Shown in pieces: positions 15,912-24,872 of a DNA stretch of 64,000 bases. The stretch is from positions 1 to 64,000 of the forward strand of contig NZ_JAIEME010000035.1 of the NCBI RefSeq assembly GCF_019752415.1, read 5' to 3'. The notes under the pieces are model-generated. The model saw nothing but the letters and a program-made list of their open reading frames with translations, made no database searches and had not been told where the DNA came from. The translations under genes and the position numbers were made by a program. The stretch comes from Nitrosomonas sp. Lineage in GTDB: Bacteria; Pseudomonadota; Gammaproteobacteria; Burkholderiales; Nitrosomonadaceae. How positions within the stretch are numbered: position 1 is the first letter of the stretch; each line of letters begins with the position of its first letter.

Positions 15912-16997
15912 CTAGAAGAAATCGATTGTACCTGTTTCTTTTTTCTCAACAATATGTCCGCTTTCCAAAAGACTTTCATAGAAATGGAGTTGGTTTTTCC
16001 CATTGTTTTTTGCGTGATAGAGCGCTTGATCTGCACGTCCAATAATTTCAGATGCGAGGTGGTGAGTTTCGCTAATCAAAGTTGCACCAACACTAATCGT
16101 GACCGTATTGATTTGCGGGAAACGATACGCTTCAATTTTTTCTCGAAAACGTTCCAATGCTTTAGCAGCTTCCGCTTGATCTGGGACATGGAAGATGACT
16201 ACAAACTCTTCTCCGCCGAAACGAAATAATAAATCCTTTGCGCGGAAATTTTGTTTCATTACATAGGATAATAGTAATAGAACTTCATCGCCCATAATAT
16301 GGCCAAACCGGTCGTTGATAGACTTAAAATCATCAATATCAATAATAGCGAGACAAAATTCTTCTGTTCCTGTTTTAGTTCTTCTCCGGTCTTGCTCGTT
16401 TCCGTTAGGTTGTTGGCTGATATCCGAATTTAGTGTAAGCGAGCTGATTTTATTGATATTCGCTTCAAAAGTTTGGCGGTTCAGCAAGCCCGTCAACTTA
16501 TCTTTCTGGCTCTCATCCAACAGGCTGCGAAAGTTATAGGTGATACTCAACAAGCTAGTGATGATGAGCATTTCCCCTTCGGTTAATGAATGAGAAAGCT
16601 CAAAAGATAGCAAACTTTCAATTTTGTTGGCGGCAAAGATTGGATAAACAACTAAGTATTGATTCCCCTGTAGCTGAATATAGGGTTTTTTTGTTGTCTC
16701 TACCCACAACTGTGCTGACTTGATCTCCTCCGGAATCACGATTTCAGAGGTATATATCTCTTGCGACTCTGAAAACTGTCTTTTATTATCATCTTGAATC
16801 AAATTGGTTGAATGCGTAGACAACCAGCACATCATGCTAGTTTGACTGAGCCTGTACATGGCTATCTGATTAATTTTTAATAACTCAGCCAATGTTTTTA
16901 ACAAACTAGTTTCGAATAATTCGACATCTCGAATGGTGGTTAATGATACTAATCGATTCAGCAGAGAAGGCGGTCCGGCATCTTTTTTATTAATCAT
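15912..16997 (-). CDS. Diguanylate cyclase (GGDEF) with an N-terminal sensory region
   Basis: The cytoplasmic protein has 361 residues. The first 150 are GAF-like (alternating helices and strands, with no membrane span). The GGDEF domain starts at DKLTGLLNR (about 167), has the metal site IIDIDDFKSIND (about 218-229) and the active loop GGEEF (261-265). The allosteric I-site RxxD (RAKD, 252-255) is placed exactly five residues before it. All features needed for making cyclic di-GMP and for product inhibition are present. A linker of about 30 polar residues (190-212) is inserted early in the cyclase domain. It stands alone, next to IS remnants. Confidence 0.92.
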   Translation of the reverse strand: MINKKDAGPPSLLNRLVSLTTIRDVELFETSLLKTLAELLKINQIAMYRLSQTSMMCWLSTHSTNLIQDDNKRQFSESQEIYTSEIVIPEEIKSAQLWVETTKKPYIQLQGNQYLVVYPIFAANKIESLLSFELSHSLTEGEMLIITSLLSITYNFRSLLDESQKDKLTGLLNRQTFEANINKISSLTLNSDISQQPNGNEQDRRRTKTGTEEFCLAIIDIDDFKSINDRFGHIMGDEVLLLLSYVMKQNFRAKDLLFRFGGEEFVVIFHVPDQAEAAKALERFREKIEAYRFPQINTVTISVGATLISETHHLASEIIGRADQALYHAKNNGKNQLHFYESLLESGHIVEKKETGTIDFF

Positions 16998-17099: not shown

Positions 17100-17545
17100 G
17101 AACATTATATCGAGCTCATTCGCTATTACGTTTGCGTAGCCGGTTCTTATAGTCGATGGCGCAGCTGCTATCAGCGTGGCGTCAACTATCTACCACGCCT
17201 GACACAACACTAATGCGTGTTGCGCTAACTGCGCAGCTGTTTCAGCAGATAGGCTTTGTGCCAAGTGATGCTTCTCCTGCATCTAATCCGGAAAATTCAC
17301 GCAACATTGGCACATCATGTAACGCTTCTCCCATCCCCGGATCTGAATAACTAAACCATTGTTGCATCATATGAATTTTCAGCATTACTTCCACCGCAGA
17401 TAGCTTGCGCCCAAACCCGCTACCAGTCACTTGCTCCATTTCTTCGAGAAACTTTTGTCGACGAGTTACTTTGGTTTCTTGATAAAGAACGGAATCGACA
17501 AGCCTAATTGTTTCATCAATGTGATTACTTGCAGTGGTTACGATA
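17100..17545 (-). mobile_element. Degenerate IS5-family transposase remnant
   Basis: On the minus strand the pieces follow the order of IS5-type transposases: TRRQKFLEEMEQV, then RKLSAVEVMLKIHMMQQWF, then MGEALHDVPMLREFSGLD, and further on IVDATLIAA, which holds the first catalytic Asp of the DDE triad. The segment between the first two is deleted, stops and shifts separate the later parts, and the C-terminal half is missing. No terminal inverted repeats were found. This is a dead fragment. Confidence 0.75.
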
Positions 17546-17735
17546 TGCCATGTTTCTTACAAGTTTTTGAAACTTATTGAGAGCTTGTATTTTTTATCAC
17601 GTAGATGACCGCAAGATCATTATTATCAGTAACTCATTCCAATTACAGATAGGAACAGTAACAATATAATCTTTAACTTTGGTAGAGGCCATCATGGTAT
17701 GACAGGGAAGCAGGATGGAGCAAGTTGTGGTAGCG

Positions 17736-17965
17736 ATGGCACCCGCTAATAAAGAAAGTCCGACTCTGTACCAAATACTGAAACGGCATGGCTGGGGCAA
17801 ACTGGCTCCGGATAAAAGCTATCCACAAGCCATCCAGCGACGCGCGAGGCGTTGAAAAAACTCCCCGAGCGACTAATCGACGAAATGGCGGCTTTTGTGA
17901 TCCCACGCCCACTGCACCCTAATGTATCGGGAAGAAGAACGTTTCGGTGGGAGTTTTGAACGGGG
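17736..17965 (+). mobile_element. Degenerate IS630-like transposase remnant
   Basis: A plus-strand frame contains LYQILKRHGWGKLAPDK, the pattern that follows the winged helix in IS630-type transposases. After a shift, EALKKLPERLIDEM and a third piece REEERFGGSF resemble the next parts of that protein. Frames are broken within 250 bases and no ends were recognised. The family call rests on these short motifs. Confidence 0.5.
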
Positions 17966-18115
17966 ATACACATTCATGGCTGATTAGGAACTATGCAAAA
18001 GCACAGCCTAAAAACTAAGCAGCTATAAAAAAATGTGGTAAGAAGCATGGTACATTCTTAACCTCAAAGATAAATATTATTACATATAATTCAATAACTA
18101 ATGCGAAGATAGCGC

Positions 18116-18568
18116 CTATTTCTTAAGTATCGCTAGTTGTTCCTTCAATGCTTTAATTTCCTCTTCTGCCCGGATTTGCGGGGTAACGTCCAATTGAACA
18201 CCCAGGAAATAGAGTAAATTTCCATTGGAATCAAAAAGTGGCGACATTAGCAAATGGTTATAAAATAATTCGCCATTTTTACGATAATTATTCAGCGTTA
18301 CTTCAACGGATTTCTTATCCTTTATAGCTTCTCGCAATTTATTGACTTCAGTTTGGTCGTGTTCCTTACCCTGTAAAAAACGGCAATTCTTACCTACCAC
18401 TTCTGCTAACGTATAACCAGTTATTGTCTCAAAAGCTTTATTAACATAAACCAATGGCATATCCTCTTGATCAGGATCAGCTAGTGACACTCCGTTTACA
18501 CATGAATCAAGAATCTTGGACAGTACTTGTGGAATCAATCCAGGGTCTTTCTCAACGATAAAATCCAT
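18116..18568 (-). CDS. Short LOV-domain blue-light photoreceptor protein
   Basis: This 150-residue protein is almost entirely one LOV (PAS) domain. GKNCRFLQG (59-67) carries C62, the cysteine that forms the flavin adduct in light. N94 in NYRKNG, N104 in FYNHL and Q125 in FLGVQLDVT are the expected flavin contacts. A helix of about 20 residues (131-150) follows, like the J-alpha or dimerisation helix of short LOV proteins. No output domain is attached, so signalling must go through a partner. The ATG at 18568 has GGAGAG upstream. It is the third gene of an operon with a flavoprotein and an SRPBCC protein. In Pseudomonas putida, a short LOV protein is known to act with a LitR regulator; none is visible here. 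Confidence 0.88.
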   Translation of the reverse strand: MDFIVEKDPGLIPQVLSKILDSCVNGVSLADPDQEDMPLVYVNKAFETITGYTLAEVVGKNCRFLQGKEHDQTEVNKLREAIKDKKSVEVTLNNYRKNGELFYNHLLMSPLFDSNGNLLYFLGVQLDVTPQIRAEEEIKALKEQLAILKK

Positions 18569-18647
18569 GATTTTCTCTCCAGGTTAATCAATTGTTTGCT
18601 AAATAAATACACTCGTGCGAGGGACTTCCGATTACTCAAAAATCAGC

Positions 18648-19112
18648 CTAATCTGCTTCAATTAATTTCTTGATATTCTTGACAGTCCGCTCGGTTCCGT
18701 CTTGAACAGCAATGCGTACCAGCTTTTCAAATGGCCTTACATGTAAATCGAGACTGAGCAGTTCAAAAATAAATGTTATCCGGCTATCTAAAGCGTTAAC
18801 CGATTCAATCACATAGTCACAACGATACGGATTAGAAACACCTTCAAAACAAATACGTTCCCCTATATCAAAAAACTTAACTTTGAATGTCGATTCAGAG
18901 CGATTGCCTTGATCAATGCGCACTTGACGGCATTGTGTTCCCAATTTTATAGGTCCATCGGTGAGTTTCTCCAGTTCTTTAACCTCCGGTGACCATCTGG
19001 GATAGTTAATCAGCAAATCGTTACCAATAAAATTAAAAAGCTTTTCACTGGGAGTATGGATTATTGTATTGGCCTTGCCAATTACAGGGGTATCTTTGAA
19101 CAAACCAAGCAT
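18648..19112 (-). CDS. SRPBCC (polyketide cyclase-like) protein
   Basis: The product has 154 residues. The pattern of alternating strands with ANTIIHTPSEKLFNFI at the start, PRWSPEVKELEKL in the first loop and a long C-terminal helix (about 125-152) is that of the SRPBCC/START-like fold, which holds a hydrophobic ligand. There is no signal peptide and no clear catalytic residue. The ATG at 19112 is preceded by GCAGGAGG. It lies 25 bases after the flavoprotein gene and 79 bases before the LOV gene on the same strand. A role in binding a lipid, quinone or pigment is suggested by the fold only. Confidence 0.75.
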   Translation of the reverse strand: MLGLFKDTPVIGKANTIIHTPSEKLFNFIGNDLLINYPRWSPEVKELEKLTDGPIKLGTQCRQVRIDQGNRSESTFKVKFFDIGERICFEGVSNPYRCDYVIESVNALDSRITFIFELLSLDLHVRPFEKLVRIAVQDGTERTVKNIKKLIEAD

Positions 19113-19137
19113 TGTAATGCCTCCTGCGTAGTATTTG

Positions 19138-20304
19138 CTAAACCAAGTAAGTATCTATTCCTGCCAACAATAAGTCATATTGCGCTTCAACCAGTTCTTT
19201 AATTGTCAAAGCTGGAATACCTGTGATCAGGTTGCCTTCCGAAACCAACCAGCCTACCGCATCTGAAGGCCCAAGGCTAACGACATAGCCTAATTCATGA
19301 TGGAGATAGGGTTCGAGCAATCCGGGAAAACCGGAATGCCGTAATATATTGCGTGCTACTAACTTCCCTTTCCGAACAGCTGATTGTGCTGTTAATGTAT
19401 TCGAACCTAACGATTGATAGTAAGAGCAGTCACCCGCCACAAAAATATTTTGTAGTGGCTCCTGATTAGCTATAATACCTTGTCCAAAGGCGTTCGCGGT
19501 AAAAATATTTTGTTGTTTCTTACCTAAAAACAAAATGGACAGACTGGAAGCCAACTCAAACGGTTCTTTTGTTTGTTTATTTGTCAGTAAAATTTGCCCG
19601 TCTTGCTGTTCACGGTAATAGGTATTTGGGTAGAAAGCAATATCCATCTCACCCATGCGAGCTTCCACATAAGATCCAAATCCATCAGGAAATTGTTCCA
19701 GAACATGTTCACCCGAATGAATCAGGCGTAACGCAGCCTTACTTTTAATTCGATTAAGAAATTGTTTTATTTCAAACAAGAACTGTATGCCCGTTGCTCC
19801 TCCACCCACAACAGAAATAGATTGTTCAGATGAATTGCCTTGGTCCAGTAATTTTGTTAATAAATCTGATCCATTTGCAATCGTGAAGTCCTGCAAACTC
19901 AGAATATTATCTTTTCTTATCGAATCAACAGCTCTACTTTCACAACCCGAAGCAATAATCAGGTAATCAAAATTTAAAACTTCTTCATTGAGACCCAGTT
20001 GTTTTTTATCTTGACATTCTTGTAGCATCTCCTGATCAAAATTTACCGATGCTGCAATGTGTCGGCACCCGTAACGATTTTCTATCTCGGTAAATGGGAC
20101 CAGCAAATCTGTCAGGGGATATCGGAATGTTTCATGTAGATGCGTAATCTTTATATGGTGCGTTTTGGAATCAATAATCGTGATATCAGTATCGGGTGCA
20201 TATTGCAAAAGATTCGTTAACGCAGCCACGCCAGCATACCCTCCGCCTACAATCACCACCTTCAATCTCTTTTGTTTCGGTATATTAAACGGCAAAAAGG
20301 CCAC
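19138..20304 (-). CDS. FAD/NAD(P)-dependent oxidoreductase, NDH-2-like
   Basis: The protein has 388 residues and two nucleotide-binding folds: VVIVGGGYAGVAAL (about 16-29) for FAD and ISVVGGGATGIQFL for NAD(P)H. The late FVAGDCSYYQ segment contacts FAD. The layout fits type II NADH dehydrogenases and their relatives, which pass electrons from NAD(P)H to quinones without pumping protons. There is no clear C-terminal membrane helix, only an amphipathic end. Its start at 20304 has TAAGGAG upstream. It is the first gene of the operon with the SRPBCC and LOV proteins. The electron acceptor is unknown. Confidence 0.82.
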   Translation of the reverse strand: MAFLPFNIPKQKRLKVVIVGGGYAGVAALTNLLQYAPDTDITIIDSKTHHIKITHLHETFRYPLTDLLVPFTEIENRYGCRHIAASVNFDQEMLQECQDKKQLGLNEEVLNFDYLIIASGCESRAVDSIRKDNILSLQDFTIANGSDLLTKLLDQGNSSEQSISVVGGGATGIQFLFEIKQFLNRIKSKAALRLIHSGEHVLEQFPDGFGSYVEARMGEMDIAFYPNTYYREQQDGQILLTNKQTKEPFELASSLSILFLGKKQQNIFTANAFGQGIIANQEPLQNIFVAGDCSYYQSLGSNTLTAQSAVRKGKLVARNILRHSGFPGLLEPYLHHELGYVVSLGPSDAVGWLVSEGNLITGIPALTIKELVEAQYDLLLAGIDTYLV

Positions 20305-20373
20305 GGTAACTCCTTACCCGATATGCATGAAAAACATTAATCACTTCTCAATTGGTCATCAATCACGTTAATT

Positions 20374-20405
20374 ATTATAAACAGTTGTGCAATTACAACT
20401 TTTAA
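20374..20405 (-). promoter_or_regulatory. Candidate promoter with operator dyad for the LOV operon
   Basis: On the minus strand, TTAAAA (20400-20405) and a perfect -10 TATAAT (20374-20379) are separated by 20 bases. The spacer and its edge hold an inverted repeat AGTTGT-N6-ACAACT (20383-20400). A long spacer with a central dyad is the geometry used by MerR-family activators. The regulator is not in the window. The remaining sequence to 20492 shows nothing else. Confidence 0.45.
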
Positions 20406-20492
20406 TCTGCACGACACTTTAAGGGTTAGACTAGCACAAATATTGGGCTTAGTGCTCTACTTTAAATCAACTCAGCATTATTGATGGCTCAA

Positions 20493-21371
20493 CTAATGAA
20501 CAATCAGATTCACGCGCCAATTTTGTTGAGCCCATTGCCAGAAGGAAGCAACGTCACCCTCTGAAATTTCAACAGGTGGTTTCTGACCCAAGAAATGTAA
20601 TACATCAACTAATTGAGTTAGTGTATTCAAACTATTGACTGGCGTAGCATTTGTTTGCTTACTGAGTTTCTCACCCTTCGCATCCGTTACCACTGGCAAA
20701 TGCAAATATTGCGGTATTGGATAATCCAATAATTGCTGCAAAAAAATTTGGCGCGGCGTAGATTCTAGAAGATCAGCACCACGCACAACATGTGTTATAT
20801 GTTGTGCCGCATCATCCACCACTACTGCTAATTGGTAGGCATAAATTCCATCGACTCTGCGCAAAACGAAATCTCCCACATCACGCTTAAGCCTCTGTGA
20901 ATATATGCCATTTAAAATATCTTTAAACTGAATCAGATCATTATTTGTATGAATGCGAAGTGCATGAGCTTTCTTTACAGATGCAGGATTCTTAAGGCAA
21001 GTACCAGGATAAACGCGCCCATTCAAACCCATAATGCTGGAATCCGCAATTTCTTTTCTTGAGCAAGTACAGGGATAAATCAAACCTTGTTTACTCAAAA
21101 TATTCAAGGCCTCGAAGTAGGCCTCAGAGCGTTGGCTTTGGTAAACAACTTCTTCATCCCATTCCATTCCTAGCCTTTCAAGCAGATATAATATTTCGCT
21201 CGCTGCACCAGGTACTTCGCGTTGCGAATCAACATCTTCAATTCTAACCAGCCATTTGCCGTGATGATATTTTGCATCAAGATAGCTTCCTACAGCCGCA
21301 ACCAATGAGCCAAAATGTAAAGGCCCGGTTGGAGATGGCGCGAATCGGCCCCGATAATTTAAATCAATCAT
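20493..21371 (-). CDS. gluQ: Glutamyl-Q tRNA(Asp) synthetase
   Basis: The product has 292 residues and resembles the catalytic half of glutamyl-tRNA synthetase without an anticodon-binding domain. The HIGH-like motif is RFAPSPTGPLHFGSL, the KMSKS-like motif is EKLSKQTNA, and a zinc site CTCSRKEI with YPGTC follows the enzyme family. It attaches glutamate to queuosine in tRNA(Asp). ATG 21371 is preferred to a GTG at 21386, since the conserved start lies right behind it. The gene is divergent from mpl. Confidence 0.93.
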   Translation of the reverse strand: MIDLNYRGRFAPSPTGPLHFGSLVAAVGSYLDAKYHHGKWLVRIEDVDSQREVPGAASEILYLLERLGMEWDEEVVYQSQRSEAYFEALNILSKQGLIYPCTCSRKEIADSSIMGLNGRVYPGTCLKNPASVKKAHALRIHTNNDLIQFKDILNGIYSQRLKRDVGDFVLRRVDGIYAYQLAVVVDDAAQHITHVVRGADLLESTPRQIFLQQLLDYPIPQYLHLPVVTDAKGEKLSKQTNATPVNSLNTLTQLVDVLHFLGQKPPVEISEGDVASFWQWAQQNWRVNLIVH

Positions 21372-23648: not shown

Positions 23649-24746
23649 TTAGTGATCCATTGCAGCTTTTGCATCAAAGCTCTTTGGTGCTTTAACTTGG
23701 GTCATGAGATCATCATCCCATTTGCCTTCAACATTCATATGAGCAGCAGCACCCAGTAATACAGCTTCAATCATGTTATGACTGAGGTATACATAGAGCC
23801 CTGGTTGTTTGAACTCATACGCTGCAGCAACAGCTGAACCGGCTGGTACAAACCAAGTTTCTTGGCTGGTCAAAGGAATGTCACTGAATGAACCACCAAC
23901 CCAGTATAGATCGCCATGGCCACCAATCAAATGCGGATAGGAAGGACGGTTAGCTTGTGAGTGAATAAACAATACTTTCTCGCCCACCTTGGCTTTTAAT
24001 GCGTTGTCACCTGTCAGTGCGCCAACAGCGCCATTAAGTACTACGTGCGTTGGGATGAGTCCTTTTGCCACTTCCAGCATATCAGCCATGCCTTCAGCTG
24101 GTGAACCGTAGGTTTTGAAATTGCCTTTGTCGTCTTTTGGCAAATAGAAATCTTGTTCGCCGATATAGTATGCACGATCATAGGTGTATGGCTTGCCCTT
24201 TGCGTCTTTCAAGCCACCTTTTGGCAATACCATAACTGCACCACTCATACCAGAAATAACGTGGAATGGAATCATGGTTCCACCTGGTGCACAGTGGTAA
24301 ACAAATACGCCTGGTTTAATTGCTTTCCAACGCAATACAACTTCTTCACCGGGTTGTACCAGGGTTAAACCAGCACCGCCCAATGCACCTGTTGATGCGT
24401 GGAAATCCACGTTATGTGCCAGCGTGCTGGTTTTTGGGTTGACTAATGTTAATTCAACATAATCGCCTTCATTCACTACGATGAGCGGACCAGGAATACT
24501 GCCATTGAAAGTTAAACCCCATACTTTTGCACCAGGAGCAACTTCAATCAATTTTTCTGTGGTTTCCATGCGTACTTCAACAATCTTAGGCCCTTTGCTA
24601 ACCTGATCGTGCACAGGTACATTTGGTGGAGCCACCAATTCTTGTTTTACACGCGGTAATTTAGAAATGTCTTGTGCCACTGCTACTTGTGTAGCAGCCA
24701 AACAAAGCAATCCTAACCCTAATACTGCCTGAACAGCTTTAATCAT
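23649..24746 (-). CDS. nirK: Copper-containing nitrite reductase
   Basis: This periplasmic two-domain cupredoxin has 365 residues and a signal peptide ending at VAVAQ (about 25). Type 1 copper ligands are H111, C152, H162 and M167. Type 2 ligands are H116 and H151, with a third His expected in [11 protein letters not shown]114 in HNVDFH and the His in PHLIGGHGD complete the active site. It reduces nitrite to nitric oxide, and in ammonia oxidisers it also supports nitrite tolerance and efficient growth. The start is fixed by GGAGGG just before ATG 24746. It stands alone; in N. europaea nirK sits in an ncgABC-nirK operon. It has its own promoter and terminator. Confidence 0.96.
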
Positions 24747-24872
24747 ATATCCCTCCATAAATGATGAACTTTGCGCTTTTTTTATGCGCCATTCTTAATT
24801 TACTGGCGCAACCTCAAATTGCCCCAATACCTCCCCTTTTTCTAAATCTAAAGAGCAAAGGGTAGCTAGGAA

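Follow-up and report, generated by a model that had tools for sequence, protein, structure and literature searches.

Short LOV proteins, among them PpSB1-LOV and DsLOV, consist of a LOV core with its flavin-contact residues and carry no fused effector (PMC4335406). They have so far mainly been studied as isolated photoreceptors; as for partners, PmSB-LOV of Pseudomonas mendocina binds the LitR-type MerR repressor PmlR2, and the 2022 paper on this pair presents that LitR-type regulator as the first case in which a protein partner of a bacterial short LOV was identified (PMC9758184). The window analysed here, 64,000 nucleotides of a Nitrosomonas sp. (NZ_JAIEME010000035.1, positions 1 to 64,000; contig 2 of a source genome of 2.96 Mb in 108 contigs), encodes a LOV protein that resembles PpSB1-LOV, DsLOV and other short LOVs in the traits just named, and resembles PmSB-LOV in having no output domain and an adjoining candidate partner gene; unlike PmlR2, which is a MerR-type DNA-binding protein, the neighbour is predicted to be an SRPBCC ligand-grip protein.

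The first-pass annotation of this DNA had described three co-oriented genes, for the LOV protein, the SRPBCC protein and an NDH-2-like flavoprotein (NDH), as one group spanning 18116-20405. The open reading frames of all three do lie on the minus strand in the order claimed, and the start of that span is right; its end falls 101 bp past the NDH start at 20304. The order of transcription is NDH, SRPBCC, LOV, with 25 bp between NDH and SRPBCC:

18116-18568, minus strand: short LOV (blue-light, flavin) protein gene, 150 aa, effector domain absent
18569-18647, minus strand: SRPBCC-LOV intergenic gap, 79 bp
18648-19112, minus strand: SRPBCC / Bet v 1-like helix-grip protein gene, 154 aa, near-constant partner gene of LOV
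19138-20304, minus strand: NDH-2-like FAD/NAD(P) oxidoreductase gene, 388 aa, GTG start, frequent and separable neighbour

The conserved core is smaller than this three-gene group: it is a two-gene SRPBCC-LOV cassette, whose pairing recurs across families and in two classes. We lean, by a little, towards reading it as a split photoswitch, with the LOV protein as input and the SRPBCC protein as the ligand-binding output. The near-constant SRPBCC neighbour would represent a second, testable kind of short-LOV partner and, if the reading is true, a hormone-receptor-like ligand fold would be placed under light control. No paper on the SRPBCC-LOV pair was found in the open-access literature searched, a coverage that leaves out most subscription papers, and SRPBCC proteins occur there together with blue light in plant papers only. 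Ammonia oxidisers gain a candidate light sensor, retained even in genomes of 1.3-1.6 Mb; sunlight inhibits ammonia oxidation (PMC9239080), and the cassette may be linked to this inhibition.

Recurrence of the SRPBCC-LOV pair

The family was sampled with 125 genomes, at cut-offs of E ≤ 1e-25 for LOV, E ≤ 1e-5 for SRPBCC (paralogues included) and E ≤ 1e-30 for NDH; matches occurred in 100, 111 and 120 genomes, respectively. An SRPBCC gene stands directly upstream of, and on the same strand as, 104 of the 106 LOV matches (92 from paired match listings and 12 from fetched regions, one of which, in G057, has its SRPBCC gene cut by the contig end). As for the remaining two, that of G065 sits where its contig begins, and that of G009 is an unlike LOV with 35% identity in a 317-aa frame. 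The gap between the two genes in the 92 pairs is 49-229 bp, with a median of 82; 105 of the 106 LOV matches are 55-100% identical to the window LOV, so that their conservation is not a matter of chance. Among 95 paired SRPBCC places, two are in LOV-less genomes: the LOV gene runs off the contig end in G005 and is broken in G077. In the latter locus (L102, G077:C97), the LOV gene is split at 846-1155 into two pieces in different frames, and the SRPBCC and NDH genes remain open; this looks like a recent loss.

The first-pass annotation had staked its proposal on finding the gene order in relatives. This check was run on 43 named loci fetched by SRPBCC sequence, a set skewed to close relatives by the search method: LOV follows in 43/43 and NDH precedes in 41 (in L047, one of the other two, the contig starts too near to judge). 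The order is thus conserved, and the proposal came through on this point. The relatives that share it are mostly Nitrosomonas, including strains of N. ureae, N. oligotropha and N. communis. All three genes are present in the small genomes G004 (1.3 Mb) and G117 (1.6 Mb), a retention that suggests that they are of value; some genomes of the same genus have no LOV match.

Outside the family, seven instances of the SRPBCC-LOV pair were found, spread over five genomes and two classes. The SRPBCC profile matched 10 of 399 genomes of the order at 1e-12, all in this family, and 9 of 369 genomes of the class at 1e-6, of which seven lie outside the family. Four of those seven have this LOV type (E 2e-61 or better) in five genes (two in G757, one each in G850, G664 and G774), and for all five the SRPBCC gene is the next one upstream. 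The 349 genomes of the phylum added one more, G1042, which belongs to another class; a LOV gene of this type follows both of its SRPBCC copies, and in one of these pairs the LOV protein is 63% and the SRPBCC protein 42% identical to those of the window. The SRPBCC profile at 1e-6 matched none of 16 other genomes of the class that have different LOVs (E 1e-45 to 1e-38): the pairing is specific to the LOV type. This recurrence in distant bacteria suggests a light-controlled switch that the literature searched does not describe.

Ordinary co-inheritance of small neighbours that have no joint function would account for the frequent conservation, within the genus, of the stretch from a nirK-like gene to LOV. 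The flanks of the pair differ among the outside genomes; across several families and two classes the pair persists while its surroundings change, G757 and G1042 each have it twice, and NDH separates from it; co-inheritance is therefore very improbable. Spread of the cassette on plasmids was considered and rejected, because the plasmid collection gave no SRPBCC match.

Some of the outside loci have features of their own. In G757 (L167, 8613-12330), a tandem SRPBCC-LOV-SRPBCC-LOV is followed by a fatty-acid hydroxylase gene, and the open reading frames about 2.4 kb upstream are presumably dxs- and ispA-like. In G850 (L168, 259-1197), there is, downstream of LOV and co-oriented with it, a GGDEF-containing open reading frame with 27% identity to the GGDEF protein of the window.

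The LOV and SRPBCC proteins

The residues and surfaces on which the proposed contact turns are as follows:

18383-18385, minus strand: codon of C62, the photoactive cysteine, in the motif GKNCRFLQG
18506-18568, minus strand: LOV N-terminal cap MxFxxEKDxGxIPxxLxxILD, residues 1-21, candidate SRPBCC docking surface
18723-18725, minus strand: codon of SRPBCC K130, candidate contact, a lead only

Regarding the LOV protein, only PAS families matched it (Pfam PAS_9 at residues 34-129, 4.3e-22), and the domain spans most of its 150 aa; it is thus a short LOV without effector domain, as the first-pass annotation had it. That annotation also placed C62, N94, N104 and Q125 correctly, and the photoactive cysteine and the flavin-contact residues are invariant in 16/16 aligned rows. 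The solved structures closest to it are those of a LOV histidine kinase, of the YtvA photoreceptor and of "sensory box" proteins; the window LOV falls outside the YtvA family of NCBIfam (NF052652), with 164.4 bits against the 250 required and 2-132 of the 243 model positions covered.

The N-terminal cap sets this LOV type apart. The photoactive cysteine occurs in 40/40 SRPBCC-paired LOVs and in 12/12 controls, and the flavin residues are common to both sets; F3, K7, D8, I12 and P13 of the cap, instead, are found in all 40 paired LOVs and in 1, 4, 1, 0 and 2 of the 12 controls, respectively, and G10 in 39 of 40 versus none. L16 and D21 are frequent in the controls as well. The controls are 12 of 18 unpaired loci, the other six, mostly frames of several hundred residues, having been omitted; PpSB1 and DsLOV stand outside this comparison. 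Both LOVs of G1042, in another class, retain KDxGxIP. To judge from the sequences, a cap specific to the LOV type suggests a dedicated partner.

Counted from the CRFLQG motif, H70 and V75 of the window LOV occupy the positions of R61 and R66 in PpSB1-LOV, and the R66I change speeds dark recovery of PpSB1 about 100-fold (PMC6047819); a fast photocycle is therefore predicted for the window LOV. Arginine is present at both positions in 8/8 thinned LOVs of the group with a methyltransferase neighbour (see below), for which slower photocycles are accordingly predicted; the other pairs vary.

As for the SRPBCC protein, it has no Pfam match at 0.001; in a lax scan, Polyketide_cyc2 (PF10604) reached 19.7 bits, under the curated cut-off of 27.4, so that the protein is not counted as a member, and two relatives exceed that cut-off with 40.7 and 51.2 bits. 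The sequence search for solved relatives returned none credible, and PHROGs gave nothing for it. The AlphaFold2 model (pLDDT 93.3) has a helix-grip fold, an antiparallel sheet with a long helix at the C-terminus (126-153), and matches 358 PDB entries at E ≤ 0.001, the best 50 of them with E 2.5e-8 to 3.8e-7; the predicted structure is clearly that of an SRPBCC / Bet v 1 protein, and the name given to it at first pass was correct. The best matches include PR-10 cytokinin and melatonin binders, PYL abscisic-acid receptors (PYL2) and, lower, the ZhuI aromatase/cyclase. PYL proteins alter their partner binding upon ligand binding. PYR/PYL and PR-10 proteins are the best fold matches of the model, yet they have 9-16% sequence identity to the SRPBCC protein; moreover, the partner in PYR/PYL is a phosphatase, whereas the one proposed here is the LOV protein.

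For the split photoswitch, we infer the following scheme. Blue light would form the C62-flavin adduct in the LOV protein, chemistry that is established for the motif; the change of shape would be passed by direct contact to the separately encoded SRPBCC protein, perhaps via the LOV cap and the C-terminal helix around K130. Light would in this way gate the hold of the SRPBCC protein on a hydrophobic molecule (lipid, quinone, isoprenoid or polyketide), a grip proposed because the modelled fold is that of plant abscisic acid- and cytokinin-binding proteins. In the alternative direction, the ligand would gate the LOV-SRPBCC complex. The output may depend on the lineage, with an NDH-2-like neighbour in this genus, an O-methyltransferase downstream in another and a fatty-acid hydroxylase in two distant genomes.

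The same genes could be read differently, with the LOV protein controlling transcription as an anti-regulator that acts, depending on light, on an unlinked repressor in the manner of PmSB-LOV/PmlR2, and the SRPBCC gene as just one of the regulated genes. Genes adjoining a photoreceptor are often its targets. The one proven partner of a bacterial short LOV found in the literature searched is, moreover, a LitR-type MerR regulator (PMC9758184). No MerR regulator is present among the genes adjoining LOV here, however, and the search of the genome, which covered MerR and no other regulator family, gave two MerR_1 matches only, in frames of 134 and 156 aa, and no full-length LitR/CarH. No regulator is prominent among the recurring neighbour groups listed, and the LOV-type-specific cap suggests a dedicated partner, so that regulation of this kind is improbable. 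The split receptor is favoured because the SRPBCC gene is a near-constant neighbour, while the MerR_1 proteins are two short frames, neither of them adjacent.

Several observations weigh against the split photoswitch. Seven of the 12 SRPBCC copies outside the family are paired, and the other five have no adjacent LOV (the second copies of G664 and G774, the copies of G869 and G772, and a weak one in G809); since a paralogue in the window genome lacks a LOV neighbour too, the SRPBCC protein has LOV-free work. In the first G757 pair, about 430 bp separate the two genes, and there is no constant third gene, NDH and O-methyltransferase being found in 0/6 and the hydroxylase in 3/6 outside loci. 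K130 occurs in 39/39 LOV-paired and 1/17 unpaired SRPBCC copies, but on a tree from which the K130 column was left out, 3-4 of the 4 independent contrasts show it tracking LOV (p 0.125-0.25), and it is retained in L102 despite the broken LOV gene; with too few contrasts and this exception, K130 was dropped as proof of contact and is kept as a lead. SRPBCC and LOV distances correlate with r 0.91 (0/2000 permutations), a value equally expected from shared descent, which does not separate out co-evolution. Finally, neighbourhood does not prove contact.

For the trees, SRPBCC rows were cut from 92 to 58 by likeness, and two loci with K130, L191 (LOV truncated by the contig) and L102, were omitted from these and from the K130 counts. 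The trees mostly cluster the copies by context, with many weak inner branches (20/53 open in one tree). Near the LOV-less copies of G664, G774 and G869 (L170, L172 and L173) there are open reading frames that we take to be DegP-type protease- and histidine kinase-like.

Neighbouring genes and possible outputs

Three further genes are needed to follow the candidate outputs, the last two being those of the SRPBCC paralogue locus in the window genome:

20493-21386, minus strand: GluQRS-like tRNA-synt_1c protein gene, co-oriented, upstream of NDH
G000:C1:61608-62072: second SRPBCC paralogue (L104), no LOV
G000:C1:60451-61485: O-methyltransferase gene of L104, no LOV

The NDH protein is predicted to have FAD and pyridine-nucleotide domains arranged along NDH-2: it matches Pyr_redox_2 of Pfam (1.9e-21), and it aligns nearly full-length (11-383) with S. 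aureus NDH-2 (5na1) and its kin, at E 1.9e-19. Unlike NDH-2, it has Q in place of E in GGGATGIQ; the glutamate of GxGxTGxE, which we take to be defining for type II NADH dehydrogenases, is Q in 57/57 copies (copies with 370 aa or more, together with that of the window). The motif AQSAVRKG, presumably that of the NDH-2 quinone site, is present in 55 of the 57.

NDH precedes SRPBCC in 78 of the 92 listed pairs. As for the 14 others, G028 (66% complete) has no NDH match, in G075 and G060 NDH adjoins a different LOV pair of the same genome, and in the 11 pairs left it is elsewhere, mostly on another contig, an assembly break being possible for individual cases. NDH stands beside GluQRS and/or Mpl in 11/11 LOV-less loci examined (L084-L092, L189, L190; they represent 11 of the 21 LOV-less genomes with an NDH match), and in G094, G095, G096 (genus code g3, probably Nitrosospira) and G055 it is with GluQRS and the LOV-SRPBCC pair is elsewhere; at 1e-4, it was found in none of the six outside-family loci with the pair. 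NDH is thus a separable neighbour: co-orientation and conserved order of the three-gene group were borne out, whereas NDH was rejected as an obligate member, given the 11 LOV-less loci and its absence from the six outside ones.

These data also bear on a three-protein redox pathway, in which the LOV protein, with the SRPBCC protein as ligand carrier, would tune an NDH-2-like quinone reductase. Such a pathway would fit the 25 bp gap in the window, the 78 pairs with NDH directly upstream, the presence of all three genes in the genomes of 1.3 Mb (G004) and 1.6 Mb (G117), and the presumed quinone-site motif in nearly all copies. It is at odds with the 14 pairs that NDH does not precede and the six outside loci where it was not found, with its company of GluQRS or Mpl in every LOV-less locus examined, and with the constant Q at the presumed NDH-2 glutamate; we give it little credence.

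The second SRPBCC protein of the window genome is 54% identical to the first and is followed by an O-methyltransferase (Methyltransf_2), with a weak NCBIfam match to BchU and PDB kin that include DSYB and hydroxyindole O-methyltransferase; nearby open reading frames are presumably ispA, dxs and murJ. An O-methyltransferase also stands behind SRPBCC-LOV in 12/12 g3 genomes with a second LOV type (judged by places; ten were drawn out). The methyltransferase had no match at 1e-20 in 12 or more of the family genomes that hold the pair, including G041, G063 and G073 (completeness 99% or higher), and it was found in 0/6 outside loci at 1e-4; as it is not near the window pair either, it was rejected as part of the core.

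A fatty-acid hydroxylase gene adjoins the pair in three of the six outside loci, one in G757 and both in G1042, with 52-69% identity between loci; it is not beside the pair in G850, G664 and G774, and it was not found in the window genome, on which grounds it was likewise rejected as core. In the four other genomes searched (G107, G664, G774 and G850), the copies are only 33-38% identical and lie on other contigs.

The recurring theme of these neighbourhoods is hydrophobic small-molecule chemistry. This may mean that the SRPBCC protein serves as enzyme or carrier in a small biosynthetic route making a photoprotective or signalling hydrophobic compound, switched by the LOV protein: the methyltransferase follows both the 12 second-type pairs and the LOV-less paralogue, FA_hydroxylase adjoins the pair in G757 and at both G1042 loci, and ZhuI is among the fold matches of the SRPBCC model. 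Neither gene accompanies the window pair, however, three of the six outside loci have neither, and 12 or more of the pair-bearing family genomes have no methyltransferase match at 1e-20; such a route is rather unlikely. The split photoswitch could be widened to a new split blue-light receptor in which the SRPBCC protein is a dedicated LOV effector, so that light would govern how a hydrophobic molecule is taken up, released or converted, or that molecule would govern the response to light. Such a receptor would span two or more classes within a single phylum, and its outputs (NDH-2, O-methyltransferase, fatty-acid hydroxylase) could be exchanged; this broader claim is tentative and stops somewhat short of probable.

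Other features of the window

A scan of 17900-20700 for promoters and terminators gave fewer sites than shuffled sequences, none of them usable. Downstream of LOV, on the same strand, there is a diguanylate cyclase gene at 15912-16997 (GGDEF 5.7e-35), homologues of which flank the locus in a few relatives, though inconstantly. Between this gene and LOV, small open reading frames at 17100-18000 resemble a decayed insertion element, the one at 17242-17439 being presumably like the start of a transposase. Finally, a multicopper-oxidase protein, which we take to be a NirK-type nitrite reductase, is encoded at 23649-24758, and most of the longer named loci keep its gene nearby.

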